NCBI RefSeq assembly: GCF_000189635.1
Contig: NW_002476463.1
Location: forward strand, 744,001 to 808,000
From: Tetrahymena thermophila SB210
Taxonomy: Eukaryota > Ciliophora > Oligohymenophorea > Hymenostomatida > Tetrahymenidae
Direction of reading: 5' to 3'
DNA: 64,000 nucleotides
In this document: one piece after another, positions 14,374 to 50,584 of the stretch
Layout of the letters: every line of letters starts with the position of its first letter
Position numbering within the stretch: position 1 is the first letter of the stretch
The notes under the pieces: model-generated
What the model was told of the DNA's origin: nothing
The model's input: the letters and a program-made list of their open reading frames with translations, nothing else
Database searches by the model: none
Position numbers and translations under genes: made by a program

Positions 14374-16038
14374 TTATAAATTTATAAATTAAAAATATAA
14401 AATATAATAAAAATCCTTTTATATATTGTAAAAAAATAATATAAATTATCTTTACTTTTATACCTTAGTTAGGCATTAGTGTATGTAGCTTACTATAATT
14501 TAAATCTATTATCAACAATCAAATCTTTGGAATGTTTTGAATTCTTTTAACTATTTGCTTTGGTATCTATTGCTCTAAATATATTTTTGATGTGTTTTTT
14601 AATAATTTATCTTCTGGAATAGTGACAGTTATTTATTTTTCATCTTATCTAGTATATTATTTATATGTATTCTTAGTACATGTTCTTAACTATTATTACT
14701 TTAGTTAAATACTTGTAAATAATAAACCAAAAATCAAGATTACACTTAAAACATTTCAAACAGTCTATCTAAATTAAGTTAAAAGTTAATTTATCTTAAT
14801 CAAATGGTTATTAGCTGAGAAAAAATAATAAAAATGATATAGATTTATAAAATTTAAAATTGATTACAAACAATAAAATTTAATTATTTAAATTATTTTC
14901 TGTTTTTAATTATTTGTGTTATGTTTTTTCTAAATTATACAACTTTTTTAATTGAATAGGTTTTAAAAGAAATAAATAAAACTATAATAAGAGTAAAATA
15001 AATGAGGTTTTATTTTAAATATTTTTTAACAATTTTTTTTAATAGCCATAAGAACATTTTTTTAAATTAAATAAGATAAGCATTTTAAAATTTATAATAC
15101 CACATTAATAAAAAATTACATAAATTCTTGATATGAAATAAGCTTATAAAAGCCAAATTCAACATTAACGACTTTTAAATTTATTAATTTACTCTAAATA
15201 TTATTGAATAAAAATCAAATTTGTATTATTGAATGAATAAATGATAATTTAAAAAACAATTATTTTATGATTTTAAAAAATATAAAATGAAAAAAATAAA
15301 AATAAGATAAATTAAAAATTTGAGAAAAAAAAAACAAAAATAAACATATTAAACAAAAATGTTAAAATAAAAAGTAAAACTTGATTTCTCCCTGAGGTTT
15401 TATTTAAATCATGGCATCTAATTAATCAAGATAAATAAAAAAAAAGGATAAAAATATGATTGATGGATAATATTTAAGATTAAAATATAACTGGCATATA
15501 AAGTTTGGCATTTATATAATTTAATAAGATGTAATATAACACTAAAAGTTTCAAATTGTTTGATTGTTTTTGGAGAAACAAGAGAGTTTGCTTAAGAGTA
15601 TTTAATTTTTTATTTTTTATAAATAATTTATTTACTTACAAAAATATGAATCATATTTATAAATATAAAATCAATAATAAAATCTATTTATATTTGTATT
15701 TTAGATTTCAATTTTTTTCAAAATATTATTTAATAAAATATATAATATTATTCAAACATTTTATATTTATTCATCCTTTTTTCAATACTTATTTATCATT
15801 AGAAATTAAAGATAACTAATCTTTTTGATTTACGACACTTGCTTATTACTTTGAATATTTATAATATATTCATTGAGTTATAACTTTTATAATAAATTTG
15901 TGTAAATTATTAATAAATATCAAAATAGAATAAACTTTTAAATTAAAAATGATTCTTTAAATTAATAAATAAAATAATATTAGTTGAATAAAAAAGATCA
16001 AAAAATAAAATAAATAAAAGTTATCAAATAAATTCAAA
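14374..16038. other. A+T-rich spacer between the membrane-protein array and the LRR array
   Basis: Contains the relic at 14460-14650 and a block at 14774-14905 shared with 7261-7400. A frame of about 90 codons at 15556-15831 is mostly Phe/Ile/Asn/Lys/Tyr and looks like chance in A+T-rich DNA. No terminal exon for the minus-strand LRR array was recognised here, though the last unit's intron-like sequence continues into it. Confidence 0.55.
14460..14650 (+). pseudogene. Relic of the membrane protein family (helix 2-3 segment)
   Basis: A short frame reading VAYYNLNLLST followed by hydrophobic residues ends at a TGA near 14625. It matches the relic at 11070-11215 and the helix 2-3 segment of full-length members. 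No start, no helix 4 and no tail are seen. Confidence 0.4.
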
Positions 16039-19000
16039 GAGCTTTTTTGTTTTATATTCATTTTTTTTGTTTAAAAATCACAATCCAAAACAAATAAACT
16101 GTTTTTACCTAAGGTAAAGTGTCAAATTCGAGAGATTAATGCAATTTGCTAAAGCAGAACCTAAGCCTGATGTACCTTCATCACCAATTTAATTGTAACT
16201 TTTTAAATATTCAAGAAAAAAATATCATTAAATAGTTAATTAGAAGGAAAAAATGAAGAAAATATGAAATAATAAGATTAATTAATAATAGAAGCAAAAT
16301 TTAAAAATAAAATGATGAGCTAAATTAACAAAGAAAGAACAAAAAAAAGCAAGCACAATAAAAAGAAAAAGAAAAAAGAGCTTTATTGTTTTTAATTAGT
16401 TTTTATAATTAAAAATATCACAATCTAAAACAAATAAACTGTTTTTACCTAAGGTCAAGTGTCAAATTCGAGAGATTAATGCAATTTGCTAAAGCAGAAC
16501 CTAAGCCTGATGCACCTTCATTACCAATTTAATTTTCACTTTTTAAATATTGAATAAAAAATTTATCATTAAATAGTTAATTAGAAGGAAAAAATGAAGA
16601 AAAAATATGAAATAATAAGATTAATTAATTAATAATAAAAGCAAAATTTGAAAATAAAATGATGAGCTAAATTAACAAAGAAACAACAAAAAAAAAGCAA
16701 GCACAATAAAAAGAAAAAGAAAAAAGAGCTTTATTGTTTTTAATTAGTTTTTATAATTAAAAATATCACAATCCAAATCAAATAAACTGTTTTTACCTAA
16801 GGTTAAGTGTCAAATAGAAATTAATGCACTTTGCTAAACTAGAACATAAGCCTGATGCACCTTCATCACCAATTTAATTTTCACTTTTTAAATATTGAAT
16901 TAAAAAAATATATCATTAAATAGTTAATTAGAAGGAAAAAATGAAGAAAAAATATGAAATAATAAGATTAATTAATTAATAATAAAAGCAAAATTTGAAA
17001 ATAAAATGATGGGCTAAATTAACAAAGAAAGAACAAAAAAAAAGCAAGCACAATAAAAAGAAAAAGAAAAAAGAACTTTATTGTTTTTAATTAGTTTTTA
17101 TAATTAAAAATATCACAATCCAAATCAAATAAACTGTTTTTACCTAAGGTCAAGTGTCAAATTTGAGAGATTAATGCAATTTGCTAAACTAGAACCTAAG
17201 CCTGATGCACCTTCATTACCAATTTAATTTCCACTTTTTAAATATTGAAGAAAAAATATATCATTAAATAGTTAATTAGAAGGAAAAAAAGAAGAAAAAA
17301 TATGAAATAATAAGATTAATTAATTAATAATAAAAGCAAAATTTAAAAATAAAAACAAAGAAAGAACAAAAAAAAAGCAAGCACAATAAAAAGAAAAAGA
17401 AAAAAGAGCTTTATTGTTTTTAATTAGTTTTTATAATTAAACATATCACAATCCAAATCAAATAAACATTTTTTACTTAAGGTAAAGTGTCAAATTTGAG
17501 AGATTAATGCAATTTGCTAAAGCAGAACCTAAGCCTGATGCACCTTCATCACCAATTTAATTTTCACTTTTTAAATATTCAAGAAAAAAATATCATTAAA
17601 TAGTTAATTAGAAGGAAAAAATGCAGATAAAATATGAAATAATAAGATTAATTAATTAATAATAAAAGCAAAAGTTAAAAATAAAATGATGAGCTAATTT
17701 AACAAAGAAAGAATAAAATAAAAGCAAGCACAATAAAAAGAAAAAGAAAAAAGAGCTTTATTGTTTTTAATTAGTTTTATAATTAAAAATATCACAATCC
17801 AAATCAACTAAACTGTTTTTACTGAAGATAAAATGTCAAATTTGAGAGATTAATGCAATTTGCTAAAGCAGAACCTAAGCCTGATGCACCCATTAAACCA
17901 ATTTTATTCCTACTTTTTAAATATTGAAGAAAAAATATATCATTAAATAGTTAATTAGAAGGAAAAAATGAAGAAATAATATGAAATAATAAGATTAATT
18001 AATTAATAATAAAAGCAAAATTTGAAAATAAAATGATGAGCTAAATTAACAAAGAAACAACAAAAAAAAAGCAAGCACAATAAAAAGAAAAATAAAAAAG
18101 AGCTTTATTGTTTTTAATTAGTTTTTATAATAAAAAAATAAACAATCTAAAACAAATAAACTGTTTTTACCGAAGGTCAAGTGTCAAATTCGAGAGATTA
18201 ATGCAATTTGCTAAAGCAGAAGCTAAACCTGATGCACCAATTGCACCAATTTAATTTCCACTTTTTAAATATTGAATAAAAAATATATCATTAAATTGTT
18301 AATTAGAAGGAAAAAATGAAGAAAAAATATGAAATAATCAGATTAATTAATTAATAATAAAATCAAAATTTGAAAATATATTGATGAGCTAAATTAACAA
18401 AGAAAGGACAAAAAAAAAGCAAGCACAATAAAAAATAAAAGAAAAAAGAGCTTTATTGTTTTTAATTTGTTTTTATAATTAAAAATATCACAATCTAAAA
18501 CAAATAAACTGTTTTTACCGAAAGTCAAATGTCAAATTCGAGAGATTAATGCAATTTGCTAAAGCAGAACCTAAGCTTGATGCACCTTCATCACCAATTT
18601 AATTTTCACTTTTTAAATATTGAATAAAAAATGTATCATTAAATAGTTAATTAGAATGAAAATATGAAGAAAAAATATGAAATAATAAGATTAATTAATT
18701 AATAATAAAAGCAAAATTTGAAAATAAAATGATGAGCTAAATTAACAAAGAAAGAACAAAAAAAAAGCTAGCACAATAAAAAGAAAAAGAAAAAAGAGCT
18801 TTATTGTTTTTAATTAGTTTTTATAATAAAAAATATCACAATCTAAAACAAATAAACTGTTTTTACCTAAGGTCAAGTGTCAAATTCGAGAGATTAATGA
18901 AATTTGCTAAAGCAGAACCTAATCCTGATGCACCCATTGAACCAATTTAATTATAACTTTTTAAATATTCAAGAAAAAAAATATCATTAAATAGTTAATT

Positions 19001-22000
19001 AGAAGGAAAAAATGAAGAAAAAATATGAAATAATAAGATTAATTAATTAATTAATGATAAAAGCAAAATTTGAAAATAAAATGATGAGCTAAATTAAAAA
19101 AGAAAGAACAAAAAAAAAGCAAGCACAATAAAAAGAAAAAGAAAAAAGAGCTTTATTGTTTTTAATTAGTTTTTATAATTAAAAATATCACAATCCAAAT
19201 CAAATAAACTGTTTTTACCTAAGGTTAAGTGTCAAATTCGAGAAATTAATGCACTTTGCTAAACTAGAACCTAAGCTTGATGCACCTTCATTACCAATTT
19301 AATTTCCACTTTTTAAATATTGAAGAAAAAATATATCATTAAATAGTTAATTAGAAGGAAAAAATGAAGAAAAATATGAATTAATAAGATTAATTAATTA
19401 ATAATAAAAGCAAAATTTGAAAATAAAATGATGAGTTAAATTAACAAAGAAAGAACAAAAAAAAAGCAAGCACAATAAAAAGAAAAAGAAAAAAGAGCTT
19501 TATTGTTTTTAATTAGTTTTTATAATTAAAATTATCACAATCCAAATCAAATAAATTGTTTTTACCTAAGGTCAAGTATCAAATTCGAGAAATTAATGCA
19601 CTTTGCTAAACTAAAACCTAAGCCTGATGCACCTTTATCACTAATTTAATTGTAACTTTTAAATATTGAAGAAAAAATATATCATTAAATAGTTAATTAG
19701 AAGGAAATAAAGAAGTAAAAATATGAAATTATAAGATTAAAAAATTAATAATAAAAGCAAAATTTAAAAATAAAATAATGAGCTAAATTAACAAAGAAAG
19801 AACAAAAAAAAGCAAGCACAATAAAAAAAAAAGAAAAAAGAGCTTTATTGTTTTTAATTAGTTTTTATAATTAAAAATATCATAATCCAAATCAAATAAA
19901 CTGTTTTTACCGAAGGTCAAGTGTCATATTCAAGAGATTAATGCAATTTGCTAAAGCAGAACCTAAGCCTGATGCACCCATTGCACCAATTTAATTTCCA
20001 CTTTTTAAATATTGAATAAAAAATATATCATTAAATAGTTAATTAGAAGGAAAAAATGAAGAAAAAATATGAAATAATAAGATTAATTAATAATAAAAGC
20101 AAAATTTGAAAATAAAATGATAAAATAAATTAATAAAGAAAGAACAAAAAAAAAGTAAGCACAATAAAAAGAAAAAGTAAAAAGAGCTTTAATTTTTTAA
20201 TTAGTTTTTATAATTAAAAATATCACAATCTAAAACAAATAAACTGTTTTTACCTAAGGCCAAGTCTCAAATTCGAGAGATTAATGCAATTTGCTAAAGC
20301 AGAACCTAAGCCTGATCCACCTTTATCACCAATTTAATTGTAACTTTTTAAATATTGAAGAAAAAATATATCATTATATAGTTAATTAGAAGGAAAAAAT
20401 GAAGAAAAAATATGAAATAATGAGATTAATTAATTAATAATAGAAGCAAAATTTAAAAATAAAATAATGAGCTAAATTAACTAAGAAAGAACAAAAAAAA
20501 AGCAAGCACAATAAAAAGAAAAAGAAAAAAGAGCTTTATTGTTTTTAATTAGTTTTTATAATTAAAAATATCACAATCCAAATCAAATAAACATTTTTTA
20601 CCTAAGGTAAAGTGTCAAATTCGAGAGATTAATGCAATTTGCTAAAGCAGAACCTAAGCCTGATGCACCTTCATCACCAATTTAATTTTCACTTTTTTAA
20701 TATTGAATAAAAAATATATCATTAAATAATTAATTAGAAAGAAAAAATAAAAAAAAAATATGAAATAATAAGATTAATTAATTAATTAAAAATATCACAA
20801 TCCAAATCAAATAAACTATTTTTACCCAAGGTTAAGTGTCAAATTCGAGAGATTAATGCAATTTGCTAAAGCAGAACCTAAGCCTGATGCACCCATTGCA
20901 CCAATTTAATTTCCACTTTTTAAATATTGAAGTAAAAGTATATCATTAAATAGTTAATTAGAAGGAAAAAATGAAAAAAAAAAATATGAAATAATAAGAT
21001 TAGTTAATTAATAATAAAAGCAAAATTAGAAAATAAAATGATGAGCAAAATTAACAAAGAAAGAACAAAAAAAAGCAAGCACAATAAAAAGAAAAAGAAA
21101 AAAGAGCTTTATTGTTTTTAATTAGTTTTTATAATAAAAAATATCACAATCTAAAACAAATAAACTTTTTTTACCGAAGGTCAAGTGTCAAATTTGAGAG
21201 ATTAATGCAATTTGCTAAAGCAGAACCTAAGCCTGATGCACCTTCATCACCAATTTAATTTCCACTTTTTAAATATAGAAGAAAAAATATATCATTAAAA
21301 AGTTTATTAGAAGGAAAAAATGAAGAGAAAATATGAAATAATAAAATAATTAAATTAATAATAAAAGCAAAATTTGAAAATAAAATGATGAGCTAAATTA
21401 ACAAAGAAAGGACAAAAAAAAAAGCAAGCACAATAAAAAGAAAAAGAAAAAAGAGCTTTATTGTTTTTAATTAGTTTTTATAATTAAAAATATCACAATC
21501 CAAATCAAATAAACTGTTTTTACCCAAGGTTAAGTGTCAAATTCGAGAGATTAATGCAATTTGCTAAAGCAGAACCTAAGCCTGATGCACCTTCATCACC
21601 AATTTAATTTCCACTTTTTAAATATAGAAGAAAAAATATATCATTAAAAAGTTTATTTGAAGGAAAAAATGAAGAGAAAATATGAAATAATAAAATAATT
21701 AAATTAATAATAAAAGCAAAATTTGAAAATAAAATGATGAGCTAAATTAACAAAGAAAGGACAAAAAAAAAAGCAAGCACAATAAAAAGAAAAAGAAAAA
21801 AGAGCTTTATTGTTTTTAATTAGTTTTTATAATTAAAAATATCACAATCCAAATCAAATAAACTGTTTTTACCCAAGGTCAAGTGTCAAATTCGAGAGAT
21901 TAATGCAATTTGCTAAAGCAGAACCTAAGCCTGATGCACCCATTGCACCAATTTAATTTCCACTTTTTAAATATTGAAGTAAAAGTATATCATTAAATAG

Positions 22001-22740
22001 TTAATTAGAAGGAAAAAATGAAAAAAAAAATATGAAATAATAAGATTAGTTAATTAATAATAAAAGCAAAATTAGAAAATAAAATGATGAGCAAAATTAA
22101 CAAAGAAAGAACAAAAAAAAAGCAAGCACAATAAAAAGAAAAAGAAAAAAGAACTTTATTGTTTTTAATTAGTTTTTATAATAAAAAATATCACAATCTA
22201 AAACAAATAAACTTTTTTTACCGAAGTTCAAGTGTCAAATTCGAGAGATTAATGCAATTTGCTAAAGCAGAACCTAAGCCTGATCCACCATTATCACCAA
22301 TTTAATTGTAACTTTTTAAATTTTGAAGAAAAAATATATCATTAAATTGTTAATTAGAAGGAAAAAATGAAGAAAAAATATGAAATAATAAGATTAATTA
22401 ATTAATAATAAAAGCAAAATTTAAAAAATAAAATGATGAGATAAATTAATAAAGAAAGAACAAAAAAAAAGCAAGCACAATAAAAAGAAAAAGAAAAAAA
22501 GAGCCTTTATTGTTTTTAATTAGTTTTTATAATTAAAAATATCACAATCCAAATCAAATAAACATTTTTTACCTGAGGTAAAGTGTCAAATTCGAGAGAT
22601 TAATGCTATTTGCTAAAGCAGAACCTAAGCCTGATGCACCCATTGCACCAATTTAATTTCCACTTTTTAAATATTGAATAAAAAATATATCATAAAATAG
22701 TTAATTAGAAGGAAAAAATGAAGAAAAAATATATCATTAA
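16039..22740 (-). repeat. Tandem array of 20 units of about 347 bp, each with one LRR exon
   Basis: Units repeat every 335-352 bp with one short unit (about 224 bp between the exon blocks at 20602 and 20826, because of a deletion in the non-coding part). The conserved landmarks in each (+ strand) are gagctttattgtttttaatt, then tttttac, then a 90-bp block containing gcaatttgctaaagcagaac, then cttttt, then gttaattagaaggaaaaa and an A-rich stretch. The 90-bp block is the coding part on the minus strand. Neighbouring units differ by scattered substitutions. Some are almost identical (16 and 17; 15 and 18), which shows recent duplication inside the array. The array decays after 22740, where only intron-like remnants continue to about 23300. 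Confidence 0.95.
16109..22662 (-). CDS. Putative leucine-rich-repeat gene made of 20 one-repeat exons (terminal exons not found)
   Basis: On the minus strand each unit has an open block bounded by a 3' splice signal (AAAAAG before it) and a 5' signal (GTAAA after it). Blocks are 90 nt: 16109-16198, 16449-16538, 16797-16883 (87 nt), 17144-17233, 17477-17566, 17823-17912, 18171-18260, 18519-18608, 18867-18956, 19219-19308, 19566-19655, 19911-20000, 20254-20343, 20602-20691, 20826-20915, 21175-21264, 21524-21613, 21873-21962, 22222-22311, 22573-22662. Each starts with the third base of a codon and ends with the first two, so joined blocks keep one frame. The codons read xNQIGDEGASGLGSALANC then INLSNLTLDL, a 30-residue leucine-rich repeat of the ribonuclease-inhibitor style. 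No TGA was found in frame. Substitutions fall at variable LRR positions (for example GDEG or GAMG). First and last exons, start and stop are not visible, so it may be partial or inactive. Confidence 0.7.
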
Positions 22741-25091
22741 ATAGAGAAAATTACTATAAAAATTTACAAAAATAGAGTTTTATATACCAGTTTTTCATTT
22801 TATAAAATAAAAATTTTTAATATTTTTTATGAAATTTTTTCTATCCTAGATTTTCAAAATTTATTTTTTTTCAAAAAAAATGATATTTTATGCTTAATAA
22901 AAATTAGCTTTATTTATAATGTAATTTAGATATAAATTAAATAGGTATTTCACTATTGTTAATTATGAGGAAAAAATGAAGAAAAAATATGAAATAATAA
23001 GATTAATTAATAATTAATAAAATTAACAAAGAATTAAAAAATAAGAATTCATAATAAAAAGAAAAACGAAAACAAATCAAATAAATTAAAAGAACTTTAA
23101 TGTTTTAAATTAACTTTTATAATTAAAAATATTATAATGTAAAACAAATAAATAGCTTTTATTAAGTGTAAGTTTTAATAGCAAAAATTAAGAAAAAATA
23201 TCAAATAATAAAAATGAATAATCAATAAATAATTAAAAATTGAAATGAAAATTAAGTTAAAATTGCTAAAAAATTTAAGTTTTAATAAAAATCAATAAAT
23301 AATGATGATAATTTCTTTTATATAAATTATTTATTTAAATAAATTTAAAATAAAATAAACAAAAAATATTAATAATAATAAAAAAATATTTTTTAATTAA
23401 ATATACTTCAGATTAATATGGAGAACCTAATGAGATAAAAGTGAAGAGCTTTTAAACTTTTTTTATTAATTTATATAAATTAAAAGGATATTAATAAAAA
23501 AATAAATAATTACTTCTTCTAATCTATTATATCTTTTAATCTATTATATCATTTATTTTTTTTTTCAAAAATATTGAATAGCAGTTTATGAAATTTAATT
23601 AATTAATTATAAATGGATAAAAAGAACAAATAAATACAATAATTAATTAATTATCAAATATTAATTTATATATTTGGCTTTATGAAGAGATATCACATTC
23701 ACTATTTAAACTTAATATTTTTATTGAAAACATATACTTAAAAATATAGTAGGAATTAAAGACGGCCAGTTATTTATTTAGTAATATTTGAAAAAAACCT
23801 GGTAGTTAATGTTATTAAGTATTATAAAAATAATGTTTAAAAGTAGATTTTTCTGTTTTAGCTATGTAATTTTAGGAATATTTATAATATTTCTAATTAT
23901 AGCCTTATGCCATACAAACAAAAATTTCATGGTTTGTTTGACACTTATTATGAAATATATTTTTTATTTATTTATTAAAAAATCTAATTTATATATATAA
24001 TTTCAAAGATAAATAATTTTTTTACATCAAAATTTTTAAATTGAGCTAGATTTTATATTTTTTAATATTTTTTACTATTAAACATAATTTAAAAAAATTA
24101 TTTAGTCAATAATGTTGAAGAGTTATTTAATAAATTCTATGCAAATAAAAATAATATTGATTTATCATGCCAATATGAATGAAGATTTTCATATTTTATA
24201 TAATTTTTTTAGAAAAAAGGGGTATCCTCTTCAATTCTGTTGGTTAGTCAGCTCAAGGAATTAATGTAATAAAATTATATTCATTTATCAATAGTATGAG
24301 CTTAACTCTTACTAATGGTTTAATTTTTTTCTATTCGAAGAATTATGAATTAAAATTTATTAAATTATTGAAATATGATTTTAAACTTATTTTGGTTCTA
24401 GTAAAATCAAGCAGCAAATTAGTAATTTTTCAAGGAAGTCTTAACTTTTACTTTTAAAAATTTTTAGTTAAATATAAAAATCTATTTACCTAAAAGAAAA
24501 TCATATTCCAAGAGGGAAATATTCCTTATTTGCAATATGTAAACATTTAAACAATTTTCTTAACTTTATTTAGCTTAAGAAGTTTTAAAAAACTTTTTAA
24601 TTTTTGATAAAATATTGTCTTTATTAAAAAGTAATCAATAAAATTTATATAAATACTTTTTATTAGCTTATTAGTATGTTATTAACTATTTTTATATTAA
24701 ATTGAAAATATAAAATATATAACAGCAATCAATCATAAAAATATTTTATGATTTGAATTTTTTTAGTGTAATGCTTTGAATAATAATGCTTTTTAAAATT
24801 TAAATAGATGTTTTCTTCTCTTCCAATTAATATCTACAGTTTATACATTTCTTCATTCCCATAGATTTGTTTTCAATTTATATTAAAAGTAGAAAATAAT
24901 TAATTTTTGAATGTAAGTTTAAAGATGTAATATTTTATTAAATTTAATTAAAGAATTTATCTATTAATAGTAAGTAATTATGTAGTATATATTATTGTTG
25001 GTTACTTTGATTAAGTAATATATTTAAAACTTTCTAATAAATATATAAAAGTTAATTAATCAAAACATTTAACAAACTCGTTTTCTAAAAA
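22741..25091. other. Spacer: decayed repeat remnants and a membrane-protein relic
   Basis: 22741-23300 holds fragments of the non-coding part of the LRR unit (gaggaaaaaatgaagaaaaa, ttataattaaaaatat) with no LRR block. 23809-24012 holds a probable relic of the membrane protein family. The rest is A+T-rich. I looked for a minus-strand first exon of the LRR gene and saw none I could support. Confidence 0.5.
23809..24012 (+). pseudogene. Possible diverged relic of the four-helix membrane protein
   Basis: A frame starting at 23809 has two hydrophobic segments beginning RFFCFSYVILGIF. From RFF to the following SNL the spacing is 49 residues, the same as from RFF to LNL in the intact relative at 25092. 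Beyond that point the frame continues without recognisable family signature. I infer an old copy; chance similarity in hydrophobic A+T-rich sequence is possible. Confidence 0.35.
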
Positions 25092-34253: not shown

Positions 34254-36526
34254 ATGGGTAAGATAAAATAATTCTTAAATCCTTTGAAAGAATAAATATA
34301 ATAACTGCCAGAGTTTTTGAAATCAAGGTAGTTCAATGATAATTTTAAGATTTAAGAATAGGCCAAGTAGAAATATCCGAGTGGCAATTAGAAGCCATAA
34401 GGTTAAAAAAGAATTTTAAAAAAAATAAATAAAAAAAAATAATCAAAAGTTGAATATTAAATTGAAGATTAAAATGAATAAGATTATCCCAATTCTGATT
34501 AATATAATTATGAAGACGAAGATGAAGAAGGTTAAATGGAAATAGAATAAAAATAGATTTAATAAATTAATAAGTTATCTGGTTTACCATCACAAATGTA
34601 ATATAGTTAACCATTTAGCAACTCACCAATGTAATTTAGTTAATCATTTAGCAACTAACAAATGTAATCTAGTTAATTGAAATAACAATTAGATGATTTA
34701 AGTATTTAATCATTAAAAAAGTAAAAAACTATAATTAAAAATGATAATTTAAAGGAATCTGCATAGATTAAAGATAGATAAATTGAGCTAAACTTATTTA
34801 AAACCACAAAGCAAATATAAACTGCTAAAAAATCAATAACACAATCTACTAAAAAAGTGAAGTCAAGATAACTTGATAGCTAGAAAAATAAAAGTAGTGT
34901 TGCTGATTCAAAAAAGAGAAAGAGAGAAAGACCTAAAACAATAAATTAATTTCCCTAAGTTTTAGATGAATCAATCAAAACATCTTATTTTTTAAGCTAG
35001 AGATCATTTAAGTGGCTATCCAAAGCCCAGTCAATGATAAAAACAAGTATGTTTATGCTTAATTTCTAGATTGTTAATATAAAATAATTTTGTATTAATT
35101 AGTTAAGAAGGGAGTTAAAAAACAGAATAAGGAAAAGGCTATGTTTATAAGAAACCTGAAAAAGGCAAATCAAAAGGTGAAATCATTTTCAAATTTTAAT
35201 ATATAAAACCTATAAAGATCTTTTAAAGATTTTAAAACAATTTAAGACTTTACATCTAACATACTTAGATTAATTGACACATATATTAATAACAAAGATA
35301 AAAATTAGAATGTATTTCATTTATACTGTTAACTAGATAAAGGTAGTTTTGGATAAGTTGATCTTTATTTTTGTGAGATTGAATAATAATTTCTTAACAA
35401 TTCAATATAACAAGATATAAAAATAGAAGATATGGAAATTGAATAATCTATAAATATGTAATAAACTTTATATCCATTTAAATAAAAGGAATACTCTTAC
35501 AATCTGAGGAGCTTTAAAAATAAAATGAGTGAATTCAATTTATCAAGTTAGTCTCTAGGGTCTAAGAATTCTAAGAATAATACCTTGGCATCTACATTAA
35601 TTGTTGATGAAAATAAAATATCTAATACTATATCAAGTAGAGATAATAATGAAAGTATATTAATATCTTCAACTATTGCTAGTAATAATAAATAGCAATA
35701 TTTTCCTGTTGCAGGTAAGAAATTTAGTAATAAAGAAGAATTTATCCGTGAACTCTTTATTATGAATTAGATAAGTAGCACTTACAAGCCAAAAATCATA
35801 GAATAAGATATTGAAGAATAAATTATTTTTCTTGAATTAGGACTCTGTAATTTGTATAATCTTAAAATAGACAGCTAAATCAATAATTATAAGCTTACTG
35901 ATGAATTTACCTTTTAGGTATTGATTAATATATTTAATGCCATAGAATCGCTTTTAGGAAATATTAATCCTAAAACACAAACTCCTTTTCCTATTTTTCA
36001 TAGTGATATTAAACCTTAAAATATCATTTTGACAGCGACTTAGCATTTAGAGGATAAGTCTCCTGAAATTAAACTTCTTCTTATAGATTTTGGAGGATCA
36101 TCAAGCGATATACAGGATTACTGGTCTTACTATACACCTGCTTTTGTTTGTTAGGAGCTATGGAATAAAGCAATAGAAGGAACACATAAAAAAGAAAAAT
36201 TAAGCTGGTAAGAAATAAGATATGCTGAATTCTATGCAGCATGTAGAACTATTTAATACATTATCATAGACAAAAATGATGAAGAAAGTTTTAAAAAAGA
36301 AAACTATAAAAGTTTTATAAATAAATATTAAAATGATTATCCAAAGACCTGTTATATTATTGATAAATTGTTTGAATTCAGTAATATATCAAAATTAGAC
36401 AATAATTATAAAGAAATATTAAGCGATTCAAAATTAAATCTTCAGTAATTAACTAATTTAAAAATTTAGTTCGATGTAGTAAAGCTCTACCAAATTTCTA
36501 AAATTTATGAAGTGGTCAATATCTGA
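34254..36526 (+). CDS. Protein kinase, tandem family member 3 (738 aa, two exons)
   Basis: Exons 34254-35046 and 35103-36526 (56-nt intron), TGA 36524-36526. Kinase features: GSFGQV at about 345, low-complexity insert, FPVAGKK (ATP-binding Lys), IRELFIM, HSDIKPQN from about 564, IDFGGSS from about 592. The activation segment QDYWSYYTPAFV is short; EIRYAEFYAACRTIQ and YPKTCYII follow. The N-terminus of about 265 residues is Gln-rich and basic, with an imperfect repeat of SQPFSNSPMQF type near residues 118-142 and a Lys/Arg cluster KKRKRERPK that could act as a nuclear localisation signal (inference). The family motif TSYFLSQRSFKW precedes the intron. It is the most diverged of the five in its C-terminal region. 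Confidence 0.87.
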
Positions 36527-39347: not shown

Positions 39348-40221
39348 TCTCAAAAAATCACATATATATTCAACCAATTTTAAATATTTAAAAATCTAAA
39401 ATAAATATTCTTAAAAAAAATAATAACTAACCAATTTTGTTAATACTGATTTGTAAATAAATATTTATTAAATTTATATTATTGTATTATTTTATTATTT
39501 ATTATCGATGTAAATAAATCCTATCATATTACAAAGGTTGTTATAGAAAATTATATTAAAACATATGCATTAAACACCAAATAAATTTCAAAATAGTTTT
39601 TAGAATTTTATGTTTGCTCCAATATTATTTGAACCAATTAAATTTAAAATAATAAATTATTTTTTTAAATATCTAATAAAGTAGTTTGTGCTTTATAATT
39701 TTTAGTGAGTGTCTAAGAGATAGATTTTTTCATCAAAAGTTTTATTTCATTTTGGAAAACTTTCAAATACCAAAAAATATAGTTTTTCTTAACTAAAATA
39801 TAATTTTTATGTCTAGTAAAATATTTATGTATAAATAAATGATAAATTTATTAAGTAAATTTAATTAAAAAAATTTTAATGTTAATTAAAAATGAATTTT
39901 TTTATTTTTAGAAAATTAAAATATTTTTAAATAAAAACAAATTTTAAATTGAGAAATGACATATTAAAGTTTGGTAATAATCAGAAATTCACTAAATAAA
40001 GCTAAATTATGATCGAGCTTTTGTCTCTACTTAAAATATATGTATCTCAATCTTATAAAATTGATTTGCATCACCAACTTTTATAATTAATTTAATTAAT
40101 TACGAAATTCTAATAATTTTTTTAATAAAAACTATTAATCGATAATTTAAGATTAATAATTAGGTTATCTATCAAATAAAAAAAGCATATCATTTCAGAT
40201 AGAATTTTACAAGCAGTAAAA
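39348..40221. other. Intergenic spacer between kinase genes 4 and 5
   Basis: A+T-rich; nothing recognised on either strand. Confidence 0.55.
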
Positions 40222-43200
40222 ATGTAGCAAAATTAATCTTAAAATAGTAGACAGCAATAGAATATTGACACACTGAGTTAAAATAATGGTTAATAAGAAG
40301 GATTGCAAGTGATTGGAAGAAATTTTAGAAATTAAAATGAACAACAGCAAGGATATGAAGAGATTTTTAATGAAGATGACTCAATATTATTTGATAAGTA
40401 AAAATAGTAATAAATGCAGTAAAAGAGGGGTTTCTAAATGCAGAAACTTGCTCAAGATTATTACTCGTCAAGCCACGCACCAAGTAATCAAAAAAGCTAG
40501 ATGCAAAAAATGCCTCCAATATAATCTAACAATTTCAACTATATCCAACCATAATATGTTTAATAATAAGGTTAGAATTAATATTTGCAGAATTAGCAAT
40601 AGTAATAATAATAATTTTAACAACCATAATAATAGCCTTAATAGTAATTTAAATAAAATTAATAGAAAAATAAATAAGAATAAACAAATTTAATTACTGC
40701 CCCATATTTTTTTAATGCTAACTAAGTACCTGCTCCTCCTAGTGCATTTCTTATGCCTAATTTTAATATGAATTAAATTCCTACTCCTCCTAGTCTTAAC
40801 CTTTAATAAAATATTCCATAAAATAATTCTAATTTTCTCAACAATTCTTAAAATTAAAATTAGAATTAATATCAAATATATGCTCCTCCTTAATTTTAAT
40901 AGTAATAGTAAAACATTCCTTCACCACCTTAACTTCCAATTATTAATACCAATAATAATATTAATAATAACAATAATTTGTTTGGTTTTGGAAATAATAA
41001 TAGTAATAATAATAATAATTTGTTAGGTTTTGGATTTAATAATTAAAACCAATCATAAAATATATTTAATAATTTATAATCTTAGAACGTTTAATTTTAT
41101 GATAAGCCTAAGGTTTCTTCTTTAGATCAATAAAATGAAAATAAACTTCCTGCTATAGGTGGTGTTTAAAGAAGATATTAGTAAGGAGTCTTTAACCAAG
41201 ATAAAGTGAAAGAAGGTGGCTTTTAGTAATTAACAAGAGAAGGCTATTTATCTTAACATCCAATATTTAAAAAAAATAAAAATGTTTCTTCAGCATAAAG
41301 CTTTGATGAAGAAGAACAAGATTTATCAGAATAAGATGATCAAAAATTTGGTACTTTGTAATAATATTCATTAAAGGAGAAGCTACTGTAAAATCAATCG
41401 AAGAGTTAAATAATAATTTAAAGCCCACTATTAAATAAACAAACTAAATCAAAATTAGATCTTGATATTTAACCACCAATTTAATACAGAGGCTTAGAGA
41501 CAAATGAAATACAATCTGATGATAATTTAAACTTCGATCTCAATATTAATTTACCTAGTAAAAATTAAAATTAATTTATTGATGTTAATAATAGCTTAAA
41601 TTTTGATAGAAACTTATTGGTAGATTAAAGAGATAAAAGTAGGGTAAGAGAGAGATCTCGCTTAGGTGAAAAAAAGAAGAAAAAAGAAAAAACTAAAAAA
41701 TCTGAAACTCATCCTGCATAAGAAGGCCAAATATTATAAATACAAAGTCCTCCATAAATAAATGCTAATCCATTTGAAATAACTGCTAAAGAAATATAAA
41801 TGCCTTCGTAAATAGAATTTAAAATAAGAGACACGTTAACGGGTTAAAAAGTCTTGAGAACTATGATGGATATTTAAGGAGAGTCTTTGAGAACTTCTCA
41901 TTGCTTTTAAGCTTAATCATTTAAATGGACCTCAAAAATAAAAAGCTTTTCAAAAACAAGTATTTAATTAATTTGTTGATTAGCGACAGTTGATTTATAT
42001 TTTATTTATTTATTTATTTTAATTAATTTTTTAAAGTTAAAAAGGGAAATTAAATGAATGATATAATACAGAGATAGAAATAAATTTAAATATAAAATAA
42101 GCAAAACACTAAAATGAAATTAAATGGTCCTTTAAGTTTAATCCCTGAATTCGAAGAGTCTGAAATTCCTCAATAAAGATTAGTGAGTAAACATTTATAA
42201 AATACTGATATTACTAGTAATCCAATATATCAAGATGAGAATTATACTATTAATGACTCAGGTATGGAATTAAAAACAAAAATAAATCAATTTGGAAATA
42301 TTTTTCCATCAGTTGATAACTTTGCATTATAAATGACCCTATTTAAAAAAAAAATAGCTAATTTATATCAAAATGGGTAAACTCCAAACATTTAATTTTA
42401 CTTTCATAGCAACATTGATAATGGGAGTTTTGGAAAAGTAGATTTATACTTTTTTAATTAAAGTAATTTAAATTTATAGGAAATAACACCTATTGAATAA
42501 CCATTTAATTCACCAAAGTATTAAATTACATCTGAAACATCTAACGATACATAGTAATAAGGAATTTAAATAAGCAATGAAATGGAATTTGATGATATTT
42601 TGCCACTAAGTTCCTCATAACAAAAAACTGATATTTTCTTAAGCCAAAAGTAATTATCTGATTAATCAATCAGAAGTAGCAGTAATAATTTTTCAACTTT
42701 AGAAAGTGCATCGCAGCTAAACAGTCAAGGAATTTTTCTTTCTTCAAATCATAGAGAAAAAATTAATTTTATGATTAGCTCTTAAAAAAGAGAAGCAATA
42801 AATATTTTGCCAGCTGCTGGTAAAAAAATTAAAAAATAAGATGAGTTTGTTCGTGAGCTTTTCATTATGTAAACATTTCAGAGCTAATACATGCCTTCGC
42901 TATTCGGTTAAGATATAGATTAATAGATTTTATTTATGGAGTATGGCTTGTGCAATTTATTCAATTTAAAATAAGATAGTATAAAAAATAATTACAGACT
43001 TAGTGATGAATTTACTTATCAAGTACTTTTAAATATCATAAATGCTATAGAATCCTTTCTTAGCTTTAAAGATCCAAATAGCGGAGAACATAAACCTATA
43101 TTCCATAGCGATATTAAGCCATAAAATATAATCCTGACTGTTAAAAAGGAAAATGATCTTTAAAATGCTTAAATCTAACTTCTTTTAATAGATTATGGTG

Positions 43201-43652
43201 GCGCTTCCATAGAAATTGAAGATTATTGGACTTATTACACTCCAGCTTTTGTGAGTAACAAACTGTGGAGTAAATTTGTAAATGACTAAAACTACCAAGA
43301 AAAGCTAAATTGGGAAGAAATTCGATATGCTGAAGTATATGCTGCTTGTAGATCAATCTAATATGTTATTGTAGAAAAGGATAAACAACGTCTTTTTAAA
43401 AAAGACTCTACTTAATTATTTATGAAAGAATATTGGCAATTATATCCGAGAACAACAAGACTTATAAATACAATATATCAACTAGAATAAAAAGGGAGAA
43501 TTGATAGTAAGTACAAAGGAATTTTTAATCAAGACGAAATTTCTTCAATTAAATTTATTAATCCCTAAAAAATAGTTTTTGAAGCCTAAAAAATATTTGA
43601 GCTTTCAAAGCTTAACAACCATTTCAATTTGAATTTATTAGAAAATATTTGA
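40222..43652 (+). CDS. Protein kinase, tandem family member 5, with long Q/N/P-rich N-terminus (1117 aa, two exons)
   Basis: Exons 40222-41959 and 42037-43652 (77-nt intron), TGA 43650-43652. The N-terminal region (about 580 residues) is twice as long as in the sister genes. It is very rich in Gln, Asn and Pro (runs of Gln near residues 110-150, repeated PSPPQ/APPQ/TPPS words, N-runs with LFGFGNNN), prion-like in composition. It ends with the family motif TSHCFQAQSFKW before the intron. Kinase part: GSFGKV at about 709 (after IDN rather than LDK), insert of about 120 residues, LPAAGKK, VRELFIM, HSDIKPQN from about 936, IDYGGAS (Tyr for Phe of DFG, Asp about 965), EDYWTYYTPAFV, EIRYAEVYAACRSIQ. 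YPRTTRLI replaces YPKTCKIL. Likely active by its residues. The Q-runs make phase-separating or scaffold behaviour conceivable (inference). Confidence 0.87.
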
Positions 43653-44760: not shown

Positions 44761-47700
44761 ATGAACGAAATTAAAAAAAAAGTTTTCTTCATATTTCTAG
44801 GAGTGGTTGTTTATTCCTTTGCCAAATAAGAATAAAGTTTAATCAAAGAGAGAGCCAAAGAACAAGACCAATTTATGATAATGAAGAAAGATAGACAACT
44901 ATAACAATGCTTTAGTAATTGTATTTTATGCAACAATAGTTATTGTTTATAGTGTGCAGTTGATAGAGTTCTTCCTGATTGTAATTGTAGAGAAGGCTTC
45001 TTTCTAGATACCTCTTTAAATTGTCAAAAATGTGGTGAAAACTGTAAGACTTGTCTCCATTAATAACAATGCTAAATCTGTAATGAGCACTATAAGGTAG
45101 TTGGTGGTTTATGCGTTTGTGATGGAAGTAAATTATTTATTTATTTATTAATACTAATATAAAAATATTTAATAAGATTGCGATAATACTGTACTGTATT
45201 ATACAACTCAAGTTGGACAAGATTTATAAAGCATAGTTATTACCTTTAATCAGATAATTGGAATTTAAAAAACAACTTCTAAAGATATTAATAGTGCATT
45301 TACTTTATCTTATGACAATTGCTCTATTCTTACTAAAGACACCTAATAAATCTATGGTGTTTTTGATGCAGGTGATTTACAATATGGTGGCTGCTACATT
45401 CGATAATCCTAGCAAAATTAGTTTATCATAATGCTTAGTAAATTAATTTTATTTTCATAGAAATCTTTTAATTCACTATTTAACTTATTTAATAATTATA
45501 TTCCTTTTTAAATAAAGCTTCCAAACTAGATTAAAGTAATTTATTAAAAGCCCCGAAAATAGATTCTACTTAGATTTTGATATTTAATGGAATTCCGATT
45601 TATAAACCTCTATAATAAGGAGTTACTGCAACAACCACAGAAACTTAGATAGGATCATAACTAGCTTATATACCTAAAATATGTTATTTTTAATAATCAA
45701 AAATTTTTGCTTCACTAACAGAATAAAATTTATCTATATAAATTACTGCGATATAAAATATGTATGACATTTTTTAGGCTGGCAGCGGAAATATAAAGTG
45801 CGAAATAGTAAATTCCTCAGTACCTTCCATAACCTTTGATCCTTGCTCAGCATAAAATGGATTACTAATTTCAACTTAAAAATTTGTAGATTAATCTACG
45901 CTTTAGGTAAGTGTTGAGTGCTCTTTTTTAGGATAAAAAGCTAAAGACATAGTCGATATAGTTTTTACAAGTTAAAATTCATAAAATGTTAGAATTGAGT
46001 ATCAAGATTTATTTTATACATCTTCTTTTAAAGACAATTTTGAAACTAAAGTCTCATTTTTTTCAGATACTGTCTTAGACTAAATTTAAATTAGCTAAAA
46101 TATATATCCACCTTCAAATTTTGCTGCATCCTATTAGTTATTATAAGACAGTTATAATTGTACTTTTTAAATTCCAGGTTCTAATATCATCACAGAATAA
46201 TACATATTTATTTCGGTATTTTTTCTACAGTTTGATATTTTATTTTTTAAACAAATAAAGTGTTAAACTAAAATAATTTTAATATTTAAAAAATAGATTA
46301 TTGCATCTACATAAAATACAGTATCTACATTATAACTTGCTGTTTCATATTTGAGCTCGTTTAGTTTAGATGTGGATTAAAAAGTTATCTCTAATTTCTT
46401 TCCAAGTAAAAGCTTAACGATTAAAGCTAGCTTGATTGATAACGATGTCACAACCCAAGATATTAGTTAGTTTTAATTATAATGGTATTGTATTTCTGAA
46501 GATACTCAAACATAATGCAAGGATCGTAATTAAAATGTTATCTCAATATAATCATCTTTAACTGCACAAATAAGTCCTAAAACATTTAATTTAAATGGAA
46601 AATTTACTCTTTTCATACTAGCGAGAAGAAATAATAATCCGAATACATAGCAAATTGCAGTCACAAAGCTAGACACAGGATAAACTTAGTTCAATACAGT
46701 AACTGATATGAATTCCTTATAATTGATTAACTATTAAGATATTGTTTTCATTGAACTAAAATATGAAACCAATTTATACACAACAAATCAGACATGCACC
46801 TACAAAGCTAATATTTTAAATTCTCTAACTTAAGCATAGAAAACGTATGAGTCAATTTCTAATAAGCTATCTTTCATTATTTAAGATCTCTTTCCAAATT
46901 TAGATGTGATAGCTCAAAATAATTTTTCAATTTAGTTTTAAGTTTATGACTTAACCATAGATGATACTCTTTCTTCAAATACATATGCTATGCAAATTAG
47001 ATAACCTCCTTAAGGATGTAAGCTAGCTTTAAGTAAATTTTAAAAATACGAAATAAAACTCATTTTTTTAATTTAATTTTTTTAATAAAGGTTCCTTAGC
47101 TGTATTTCAAACAATTACTATATCTGTAAACAGCTGCAATTTAAATGGGCAAGATACTCAATATTAATTTTTCTTTTACTCTAGCTAGGAATAATAAGAC
47201 TAAGAAATAAAAACCTCAGGAATAATTGTTAACAGAAGAATGCTAAGCATAATTTCATAAAACACATAAGTCACGGCACATTTACCACCTGGAAATATCA
47301 TAGTTATGGTAGTCACAGTAGGACCTAATAACCTTAGATCTAATTTTACACAAGCAGCTACAATTCAAGACAATAATTGGAGCTAAGTTGAGTATGAGAA
47401 ATACATATAAAACCAATATGATTCAATTTAATAATAATCAACAAAATCTATTTAAGTTTTTGGATATTAATATATCGCAAATGCAGTGGAGTATTATGAG
47501 TCTAAAAATTCAAACTACATTCCTTCAGATAGCACTAATTAGTTAAAAAACTAGATAACTCAATAACTAATAGATTCATCTTGGCAAAATGAAGATGACT
47601 AAGTTTACTTGCTTTCAACTTAAATTAATATTAGGATAAAATAATCAAAAATAAAAATATCTTCAAGTTCTTCATAAGCATTTGTAAATGCTAATGAGAA

Positions 47701-50584
47701 AGAAGTTTAAAATATTTTACAAAAAATTAATTAATCTCAGTTAAATAATCAACAAAGATAGTATTATTAAGAAATATTATCTTCAGTTACTTAGAATTAT
47801 ATGAAGAACATGAATAACTTGAATAATTGGACAACAGGTAACTGCCAGAATGCTATTTAGTAATCAAACAATATAATGTAAGGTATAGCTTAAACAATGA
47901 TTGTTAATTAGTAGCCAATTCAAGTAATTGCTGAAGATGTCTCCCTTTTAGTTGACAAGGTAGACTATATAACTTTATTGTCTAAGTATTACGACGATAT
48001 AAAAATTGAGCCTGGCCAGTCTTAGTATAGCTAAAGTTACTTTGTTTTAATTTAGACATGGCCAACTACTCATCCTTTATATAGGGATGAATTAAAATAA
48101 ATAAATGAGCAATATTATTCAAAATCTACCCCATAATAATTAAGTCTTCTTCAAAAAACATACCCAATTATGATACCTAAAATTCTAGAAGATGATAAAA
48201 GAAGAAGGTAACTCTCTACTGCAAATGCGAATTTGCCTGGGCCTTTTTAGTTATAATTCCCAACTTAAGATGAAAAGCTATAATGTATTTAGAGAAATTT
48301 AAATGGGAAATGGGTATCTAGTAGTTGTAAAACTACCATCAAGTTTATTAAGCAGAAAAGAGTTGTTAATTGCTCATGTTAAACTCCTGACCCAACATCT
48401 ATACTAACAGATATTTCTGAGCTTTTTGAAAACCAAAATATTTAAGACATCTTTAATGGAGAAGGTTTTTGGAGAATATTCCATTTAAATAATTGGTATG
48501 AATATGCACCAATCTGGACAATAATTGCACTTAATATATTTTTTATTGCACTCCTAGTTATTGGATACAAATATGATAAACTTGACAAAGCCAAATATTT
48601 AAAAAAAGCATTCTTATTTTATGATTCTAAAATAGGATAATCATAAACTGTAGGTTAAGAAAACCTATTTATGTAAATTAAGAATTAACGAACTACATAA
48701 AATAAATTAAGTAACAATCCTATCAGCCGACTAAATACATAAAAAACACAAGAATAATTTGAAGATTAAGATGCTATTAATAATATTAACAATAACAAAA
48801 ACAATATTAATAAAATTAGTTTGGAATTTAATAAAAAAAGCATAATTGCTGAAGGAGAAAAGGTACACTCTAACAATTAAATAGCCCAAAAAACACCTAT
48901 TAACAGTTATAATAGTGAAAATTTGACAAGCGTAAATTTGATTTAATAAAATATAAGACAAGAAGGTTAAAATGATTATTAAGAATAACTTATTGATAAT
49001 TAAAACAAAGTTTCGAATGAAAAATCAACTTAGAATAATTAAATAATTATAGAAAATGAATCCTAAACTTTGAAATTTAACAAAAGCTTATCATAGTAAG
49101 GCTAAGAATAAAATTAAAATGATAAATAAAAAGCATTTGGTGAAAAATCTCTTTAGGATATTGAAAATAATAATCAAAATAGAATTAATTAAGAAATCAA
49201 ATCAAGTAACTAATATTAAATTATAAATATAGATTTGAATGAAAACAAAGAATAGGAATAATAAAAACATTCACATAATGATCTTAAGGAAATTAAAAAT
49301 TTATCTCACATTTCTTCTGATTTTTAAAAAATCGATGAAAGAGAAAATTATTAGTAAAATGCTATTGAAAACTTTTAATTCGATATCAAAAAATAATTCA
49401 AAAAAGATGAATTCCTTATTTACGAAGAGCAAGATTATTCAATATATTCTTCAAATCTTGATTAAAAATCTCAAGATCAACAGTAATCTGGTTTATAATA
49501 AATTCAAATCACACCTTAAAATTAAATTAATTTGGAAAATGTCACTCCAGATATTGAAAATAATAAAAGACCAAGTATTAATATCAAGTAAAGTAATGAT
49601 AGCTCAGATATTGAAAATAATAATACTCCTTAAATTGATGGAAAAACTCCATAGTTGGAATCACAAGTCTAGTAAATATAACACATAGACATTAAAAAAT
49701 TATTTATTTAAGAAGAAGACGATTGCGATAATTTCTAGCAAACACCTTAACCAAACAGTAAAGCTGAGAAAAATTTTTTACTTAATACTGATTAGATTCA
49801 ATTAGAATAATTTACGAAATAAGAAGAAAATATTTTATAAATTTAAAATTCAAATATTTAGTAATTAAAATAAGAGACTCCAATAATTAATAATAATTAA
49901 AACGATGAAGAAGCTATGAAAATAGATCATAAAAATGAAAGTTCAGATTAAAAAGCTTGTGATTTGGATATAAATGAATAAAAAAAGCTTGACAAAAAAA
50001 GGTAAAAAGAAATTGAACGGAGTTTATTTTTAAATGCAAAAGAGAAATTATAACTCTATTTATAAAAAGAGACAATAACTAGGGCAACACTTGCCTATCA
50101 TATGTTTTTTTAGACATTCATAATATATGATAATAAAGTATCTAGAGTTCTAAGATTCACTATATATTATAATAGACTGATTTGGCTTTTAACAATAAAT
50201 TCGGTTTTTGGAGTTAAGTTAAGTGTAGTTTAAGTTCTAGTTTTAAGTATAGTTTCAACAGTAATTATATAAGTAGTTACCACTTTACTTATGCTATTAT
50301 ACTTCAGATAAAAATTAAAAGTATTTGGAGTAATAATAACCAGCATATTTTTGCTATTTTGCTACTATAGTATACTGGTAGTAATTTCAGGATAGTAGCC
50401 TTATGATGCAAATATGTGGATTCTCTCTTATTTTTCAACTTTGATTTTATCTGATTATATCTTCGGATTGGCTATAAGTTTTGCCTTTTTTTATTTAAGT
50501 AGAAAATATATAGAAAAAATATAAGACCCTCTATACTTGAATATTCTAGGTTCTGCTTTACTAATCTAAGCTTTTTAATAGTGA
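44761..50584 (+). CDS. Polycystin-1-like surface protein 1 with GPS-like module (1851 aa, five exons)
   Basis: Exons 44761-45127, 45177-45437, 45518-46215, 46297-47032 and 47091-50584; introns 49-81 nt; TGA 50582-50584. Signal peptide (VFFIFLGVVVYSFA), then a Cys-rich segment with CNCREGF and CxxC pairs (about 49-122), then an ectodomain of about 970 residues of beta-rich appearance. A GPS-like module follows (Trp 1095, Cys 1100, CSC at 1115-1117), and a membrane helix begins near 1163 (WTIIALNIFFIALLVIGY). A cytoplasmic loop of about 500 Gln/Asn/Glu-rich residues and four or more helices from about 1690 to the end complete it (YYNRLIWLLTINSVFGVKLS, VVQVLVLSIVSTVIIQ, FLLFCYYSILVVIS, WILSYFSTLILSDY). 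Order and the last motif resemble polycystin-1-family proteins (REJ, GPS, TM1, loop, TM2-5). The PLAT domain is not visible and the channel-like end is absent. Probable receptor or adhesion role; REJ assignment untested. Confidence 0.82.

Follow-up and report, generated by a model that had tools for sequence, protein, structure and literature searches.

Tetrahymena possesses a family of leucine-rich repeat (LRR) genes, in which exons of exactly 90 bp follow each other in tandem, are separated by phase-2 introns and encode one LRR each (Xiong et al. 2019, PLoS Biology, PMC6564038). As described in the main text of that paper, at least three such exons in tandem define a member of the family, the leucine codons are centred at nucleotides 36, 48, 66, 75, 81 and 87, the repeat number differs between genes, and in group III of T. 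thermophila most introns have a length of about 257 bp, which results in a unit of about 347 bp. Unequal crossing-over, perhaps with involvement of the REP retrotransposon, was proposed as the source of the arrays, and extensive ectopic recombination among the 90-bp exons was reported. RNA support is given for such arrays in general (legend of S8), and it was suggested from the abundance and diversity of the genes that some of them may serve bacterial recognition. Here, we describe a locus on the minus strand of a 64,000-nucleotide stretch from T. thermophila SB210 (contig NW_002476463.1, positions 744,001 to 808,000), in the following called the window. It carries what is apparently a complete member of this family, of the group III type, in which a few codons of the tandem exons are hypervariable.

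The array runs on the minus strand from position 22662 to 16109 and comprises 20 blocks, 19 of 90 nucleotides (nt) and one of 87 nt, as had been claimed from a first inspection of the sequence (in the following called the original prediction). AAAAG directly precedes and GTAAAA directly follows each of the 20 blocks, the donor and acceptor sequences are almost uniform across the units, and no block contains an in-frame TGA (genetic code table 6). A 90-nt exon consists of one base, 29 whole codons and two further bases and has phase-2 introns on both sides; since all 20 array exons have a length divisible by three, the symmetric splice phase that had been postulated was borne out. Tandem Repeats Finder reports a period of 348 at 16036-20786 (score 7826) and of 349 at 20783-22732 (score 3298). 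The introns between the blocks measure 243-262 nt in 18 of 19 cases and 134 nt in the remaining one. When aligned, the introns of the window exhibit 18 distinct gap intervals, eight of them of a single nucleotide, whereas the alignment of the 20 exons contains only one gap, of 3 nt. Therefore exon length and reading frame have been held and intron length has not, which confirms what had been expected.

Leucine occupies codons 12, 16, 22, 25, 27 and 29 in 19, 19, 17, 18, 17 and 18 of 19 exons, respectively. The spliced blocks match the Pfam family LRR_6 (E 4.7e-60), and a 179-residue part of them matches 15 distinct solved chains at E ≤ 0.001, including a dynein regulatory complex subunit and a Ran GTPase-activating protein. 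This supports the view that every block is a coding exon for one LRR; like the duplication of the exon together with its intron, which also held up, it is already in print for Tetrahymena (PMC6564038). Overall, the gene structure is of a known kind. Nineteen of the 20 exons have 90 nt, the introns are in phase 2, the leucine codons stand at the published positions and the usual intron length agrees with that of group III. We found no structural difference to the family as presented in the main text of PMC6564038; a term search of this main text revealed no discussion of hypervariable strand-facing residues.

For comparison, other arrays were taken from the 101.0-Mb assembly of 445 contigs to which the window belongs. 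It encodes a telomerase domain, with TAA in frame, that is identical over 101 of 102 aligned residues to chain 2r4g, which we take to be from Tetrahymena thermophila, and it contains a ciliate telomerase RNA. One array unit as query gave 279 matches in this genome, and the repeat number varies between its arrays. Among the matches listed, we hand-picked 20 stretches on 18 contigs with 191 exon matches besides the 20 of the window. From these 211 matches, five without a clear splice signal and 14 that are not 90 nt long (including the 87-nt exon of the window) were left out, some of the odd lengths being possibly wrong boundary calls. None of the remaining 192 clean 90-nt exons contains an in-frame TGA. 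LRR arrays reach to within about 330 bases of the ends of contigs C142, C229, C413, C414, C241, C141 and C427; the arrays therefore probably break the assembly, and copy numbers are uncertain.

The conservation of coding exons that the original prediction assumed is seen in their length and frame but not in their bases, since base for base the exons of the window diverge more than the introns (nucleotide diversity, pi, of 0.110 and 0.061, respectively). The comparison of nonsynonymous (pN) and synonymous (pS) differences also turned out contrary to the expected conservation, with a pN of 0.114 and a pS of 0.070 for 19 exons of the window; for 173 exons of the other arrays the values are 0.153 and 0.126. 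The array exons are more variable than the introns because a few codons, namely 1, 6, 7, 28 and the one at the junction, are hypervariable. The four whole codons and the two exon-end bases of the junction codon amount to 14 nt, which were chosen on the window. In 17 units of the window, pi is 0.451 at these 14 nt, 0.049 at the other exon nucleotides and 0.057 in the introns. The corresponding values for 121 units of the other arrays are 0.504, 0.071 and 0.075, although these arrays share ancestry with that of the window and are not a fully independent test set. At the third bases of ten conserved codons, pi is 0.01-0.11 (192 exons), which indicates that mutation is not fast over the entire exon and that only few codons differ. 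The third bases of codons 2, 27 and 29 have a pi of 0.03, 0.03 and 0.11, compared with 0.49-0.69 at the hypervariable codons. The G+C content is 0.40 at the hypervariable nucleotides, 0.33 in the remainder of the exon and 0.16 in the introns of the window. Amino-acid change is restricted to particular residues, and the leucines stay fixed.

The consensus of an LRR strand is LxLxxN. In the register obtained from the alignments to solved chains, codon 28 takes the x position between the two leucines, the xx ahead of the asparagine corresponds to the junction codon and codon 1, codon 26 is the x just in front of this LxL, and codons 6 and 7 belong to the loop following the strand. By this assignment, the residues of the LRR strand that point outward, and that form its predicted binding face, are those of codons 28, 26 and 1 and of the junction codon.

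The same codons stand out when closely related units are compared. Units were matched by the 260 nt of intron sequence that flank the exon, and every unit entered only one pair, which gave 91 pairs from the 186 of 192 units with 130 nt on both sides. In the 50 pairs with less than 4% intron difference, the introns differ at 270 of 12787 sites (0.021) and the other 25 codons show synonymous and nonsynonymous differences of 0.024 and 0.043. The nonsynonymous difference at codons 1, 6, 7 and 28 amounts to 0.345 (176.1/511), with a bootstrap ratio to the introns of 13-20. In each bin, the synonymous divergence of the other codons follows that of the introns (0.013 vs 0.009, 0.033 vs 0.031 and 0.051 vs 0.055, respectively), an argument against bias through pairing by introns and against an assembly artefact. 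Without the units of the window, codons 1, 28, 6, 7 and 26 rank at the top of all 29 codons in the 22 as well as in the 40 closest pairs, and in the former (0.9% intron difference) their amino-acid differences are 0.64, 0.64, 0.50, 0.41 and 0.36. In the 22 closest pairs of the main pair test, 46 of 88 hypervariable codons (1, 6, 7 and 28) differ in amino acid; where the amino acid is unchanged, the codon differs in one of 42 hypervariable and five of 509 other codons. Codon 1 differs in 14 of the 22 closest pairs, seven times by one base, four times by two and three times by three. Within the window, array exons 3 and 4 differ at six of the 14 hypervariable nucleotides and at none of the other 76, with a single difference in 259 sites of downstream intron. 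In another array (L015), units 3 and 5 as well as 6 and 7 have 260 nt of identical flanking intron, yet they exhibit 10 and 11 exon-base differences, mostly in hypervariable codons. The excess of amino-acid difference at these residues is shown by the sequence itself, as are the exon structure, the frame and the conserved gene ends.

As to these ends, the extent originally assigned to the feature, 16109..22662, describes the array correctly but misses both probable ends, as the reading frame reaches 23552 and 15771. Flanks of about 1.36 kb upstream and about 1.06 kb downstream are common to other arrays in the genome. The start exon has an ATG and 48 codons, which end in half an LRR strand (HINL), stops in phase 2 like the array exons and is followed by GTATATT. 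Its half-repeat end, although outside the array, is variable at the same two places, a D/N/Y codon and the junction. The 40 listed matches to this exon consist of the window's own, 20 newly taken ones, five in loci already included and 14 that were not used; together with further copies in included loci, 35 were examined. All but one of them are exactly 146 nt long and open. The exception, the sole copy of 145 nt, is shifted in frame by 1 nt, stands beside an array of 17 90-nt exons (L024, G000:C182:379000-388900) and is a pseudogene or an assembly error. A further copy, 94% identical, is found at G000:C91:1772857-1773014, on the contig that also carries the gene in the window and about 1 Mb away from it. 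Intron 1 contains at 22972-23161 a decayed stretch with about 70-77% similarity to the beginning of array introns and 3' flanks, which looks like the trace of an old unit whose exon has disappeared.

At the 3' side, a probable terminal exon provides, after the junction base, 21 codons and a TGA. It was compared in 17 hand-chosen downstream flanks, 16 of which have its acceptor AG. By eye, a TGA can also be found about 10 codons beyond the last array exon, so that the gene might end by unspliced read-through. This was set aside, though not firmly, because a phase-matched terminal exon is conserved farther downstream. The full model has 22 exons and 21 phase-2 introns and encodes 669 amino acids in 2010 nt with a single stop, at the end.

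We consider it likely that this member of the family encodes a spliced LRR solenoid, whose scaffold is kept and whose inner face is diversified by selection, and that it belongs to a variable recognition repertoire. The predicted minus-strand transcript would be spliced through the 21 introns to give a solenoid in which 20 LRRs are flanked by a cap at the N-terminus and a short tail at the C-terminus. The array would have grown by duplication of exon-plus-intron units, most likely through unequal crossing-over, as proposed in PMC6564038 and as the unit structure suggests here. Selection would hold the scaffold, that is exon length, frame and leucines, and would maintain or promote difference at the outward-facing positions of the LxLxxN strand and at the two loop residues that follow, with introns and most synonymous sites remaining nearly the same. 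Most likely, the protein would then act in recognition, as a member of a large and variable repertoire, and would owe its form to duplication and exchange of units as well as to selection for difference. That the gene is expressed, that its product folds in this way, that selection causes the differences and that a ligand is recognized are inferred from the sequence.

Several observations weigh against this reading. In the 50 close pairs, the synonymous difference at the hypervariable codons is 0.39 (34.9/89) and the nonsynonymous one 0.345; the respective values are 0.45 and 0.46 for the window and 0.65 and 0.48 for the other arrays. Since synonymous differences are as high as nonsynonymous ones, the ratio of nonsynonymous to synonymous divergence (dN/dS) inside the hypervariable codons alone is not above 1. 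Much of the synonymous difference goes along with amino-acid change, and where the amino acid is the same in the 50 pairs, the codon differs in six of 86 hypervariable and 20 of 1139 other cases. This pattern indicates that, in addition to new point changes, whole codons have been replaced, either through an exchange that draws on old variants or through some local process. The overall variability of exon 1 does not exceed that of its surroundings (pi 0.083, compared with 0.082 upstream and 0.136 in the following intron). Its last three bases (23407-23409) have a pi of 0.69, 0.54 and 0.59 in 34 copies, and the value of 0.69 belongs to the third base of Leu48, which is synonymous. The variability of these three bases is not explained by amino-acid selection alone. 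At codons 6 and 7, two alternative blocks predominate (GATGAA, 75 of 192 exons; GCAATG, 34 of 192), a pattern that may be structural, and the hypervariable elements are near linkage equilibrium (z from -0.5 to 2.8 in seven tests). Concerning the gene model, the identical 21 codons and TGA of the terminal exon are found in just nine of the 17 flanks, which makes the 3' end less sure. Finally, most whole 90-bp-exon LRR genes were reported to be under purifying selection (PMC6564038), although an average over a whole gene can hide a few codons.

Some of these points fit an explanation with little selection for difference, in which conversion and unequal crossing-over keep introns and exon core alike and reshuffle old variants of the hypervariable codons in short tracts. 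The near linkage equilibrium, the two blocks at codons 6 and 7, the synonymous change that accompanies amino-acid change and the published extensive ectopic recombination among these exons (PMC6564038) speak for it. However, the hypervariability ends within one codon, as the third-base values given above illustrate, and this is too sharp for conversion tracts alone. Moreover, half of the changed codon-1 pairs among the 22 closest (7/14) differ by one base, which resembles a new point change. We therefore regard reshuffling with little selection as unlikely, even though it is the most serious competitor of diversification by selection.

It is improbable, but worth mentioning, that the hypervariable codons are made by targeted diversification and not just filtered by selection. 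Such a process could act in the germline or while the macronucleus develops, and it could either replace whole codons from a pool or direct mutations to them. Signs of it might be seen in the identical introns next to 10 and 11 exon differences, in the one-codon sharpness that includes synonymous third bases, in the near linkage equilibrium of the variable codons and in the third base of Leu48 in exon 1, which is synonymous and yet hypervariable (pi 0.69). If this were true, the 90-bp-exon LRR genes would be a diversity-generating recognition repertoire in a single-celled eukaryote.

There is also little probability that diversity is generated by splicing, with varying numbers of exons included to yield proteins of different length from one gene. 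Any subset of the 20 exons would stay in frame, because their lengths are multiples of three and their junctions in phase 2, and donors and acceptors are nearly the same in every unit. However, such symmetry is expected from the duplication of units alone, the term "alternative splicing" is absent from the main text of PMC6564038, and diversity in repeat number and residues already exists in the DNA of many genes.

The preservation of frame, exon length and splice signals, together with the conserved gene ends, led us to reject satellite DNA. That the array is a non-coding satellite or pseudogene remnant, whose open blocks were inherited from a coding ancestor and have not yet decayed, is very improbable: the near identity of the units, the frameshifted exon-1 copy at L024 and the 14 and five matched exons (of 211) with aberrant length or without clear splice signal would fit, but intron length varies and exon length does not, 192 exons are free of in-frame TGA, the start exon is intact in 34 of 35 copies, change is limited to particular residues with the leucines fixed, and RNA support exists for such arrays in general (PMC6564038, legend of S8).

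The coordinates of the gene model are compiled in the following table.

Parts of the LRR gene in the window (array exons numbered in the direction of transcription)
Part	Coordinates	Strand	Remarks
Exon 1 (start exon)	23407..23552	-	146 nt; 34/35 genome copies of exact length and open
Intron 1 (inferred)	22663..23406	-	holds decayed intron-like stretch
Array exon 1, 90 nt	22573..22662	-	AAAAG/GTAAAA bounded
Array exon 2, 90 nt	22222..22311	-	AAAAG/GTAAAA bounded
Array exon 3, 90 nt	21873..21962	-	its downstream intron and that of array exon 4: 1 difference in 259 sites
Array exon 4, 90 nt	21524..21613	-	AAAAG/GTAAAA bounded
Array exon 5, 90 nt	21175..21264	-	AAAAG/GTAAAA bounded
Array exon 6, 90 nt	20826..20915	-	AAAAG/GTAAAA bounded
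Short intron after array exon 6, 134 nt	20692..20825	-	other 18 introns 243-262 nt
Array exon 7, 90 nt	20602..20691	-	AAAAG/GTAAAA bounded
Array exon 8, 90 nt	20254..20343	-	AAAAG/GTAAAA bounded
Array exon 9, 90 nt	19911..20000	-	AAAAG/GTAAAA bounded
Array exon 10, 90 nt	19566..19655	-	AAAAG/GTAAAA bounded
Array exon 11, 90 nt	19219..19308	-	AAAAG/GTAAAA bounded
Array exon 12, 90 nt	18867..18956	-	AAAAG/GTAAAA bounded
Array exon 13, 90 nt	18519..18608	-	AAAAG/GTAAAA bounded
Array exon 14, 90 nt	18171..18260	-	AAAAG/GTAAAA bounded
Array exon 15, 90 nt	17823..17912	-	AAAAG/GTAAAA bounded
Array exon 16, 90 nt	17477..17566	-	AAAAG/GTAAAA bounded
Array exon 17, 90 nt	17144..17233	-	AAAAG/GTAAAA bounded
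Array exon 18, 87 nt	16797..16883	-	lacks one codon, still in frame
Array exon 19, 90 nt	16449..16538	-	AAAAG/GTAAAA bounded
Array exon 20, 90 nt	16109..16198	-	AAAAG/GTAAAA bounded
Probable terminal exon, 67 nt	15771..15837	-	acceptor AG in 16/17 flanks; 21 codons + TGA in 9/17
Outer limits of sequence common to other arrays (flanks and array)	15051..24024	-	limits differ by array

Elsewhere in the window, the plus strand contains a 552-residue open frame at 41994-43649, whose protein-kinase match is weak and narrowly misses the cut-off (E 4.8e-7; 29.9 vs 31.7 bits), and open frames of 1224, 1158 and 1313 residues at 46910-50581, 53884-57357 and 59565-63503. The second of these has a CCDC28 match below the cut-off (20.9 vs 25.6 bits); the first and the third have no Pfam match up to E 0.001. 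Short tandem repeats occur at 34590-34676 (period 33 bp) and at 40951-41043 (period 42 bp), the latter within an open frame at 39709-41979, and both periods are multiples of three. In the whole window, neither ARAGORN (bacterial code) nor Rfam at the gathering threshold gave a match.

In plant LRR receptors and in the variable lymphocyte receptors (VLRs) of lampreys, variation likewise clusters at the x residues of the LRR strand. The plant receptors differ by carrying kinase or NB domains, and the VLRs by being assembled somatically from cassettes. The nearest described parallel that we found is the WD, ANK and TPR repeats of fungal NLR proteins, for which concerted evolution together with diversifying selection at a few binding-face positions per repeat has been described (PMC4986451). 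As in the Tetrahymena array, near-identical repeats with few variable positions are exchanged within and between genes. The fungal proteins differ in their repeat types and in having effector and NOD domains, and one-repeat exons with long introns are not part of the published description (PMC4986451). Among the open-access titles and abstracts listed, a range that excludes subscription papers and preprints, we found no other report of variable binding-face residues in Tetrahymena LRR genes.

The new part of the present analysis is the strong difference between repeats at their outward-facing residues, in the midst of DNA that stays alike. The focus of diversity on the predicted binding face fits the suggestion of Xiong et al. 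(PMC6564038) that some of these genes may serve bacterial recognition, and it names the residues that would be involved. With the locus described here, there is a unicellular case to place beside the fungal NLR repeats, the plant LRR receptors and the lamprey VLRs.

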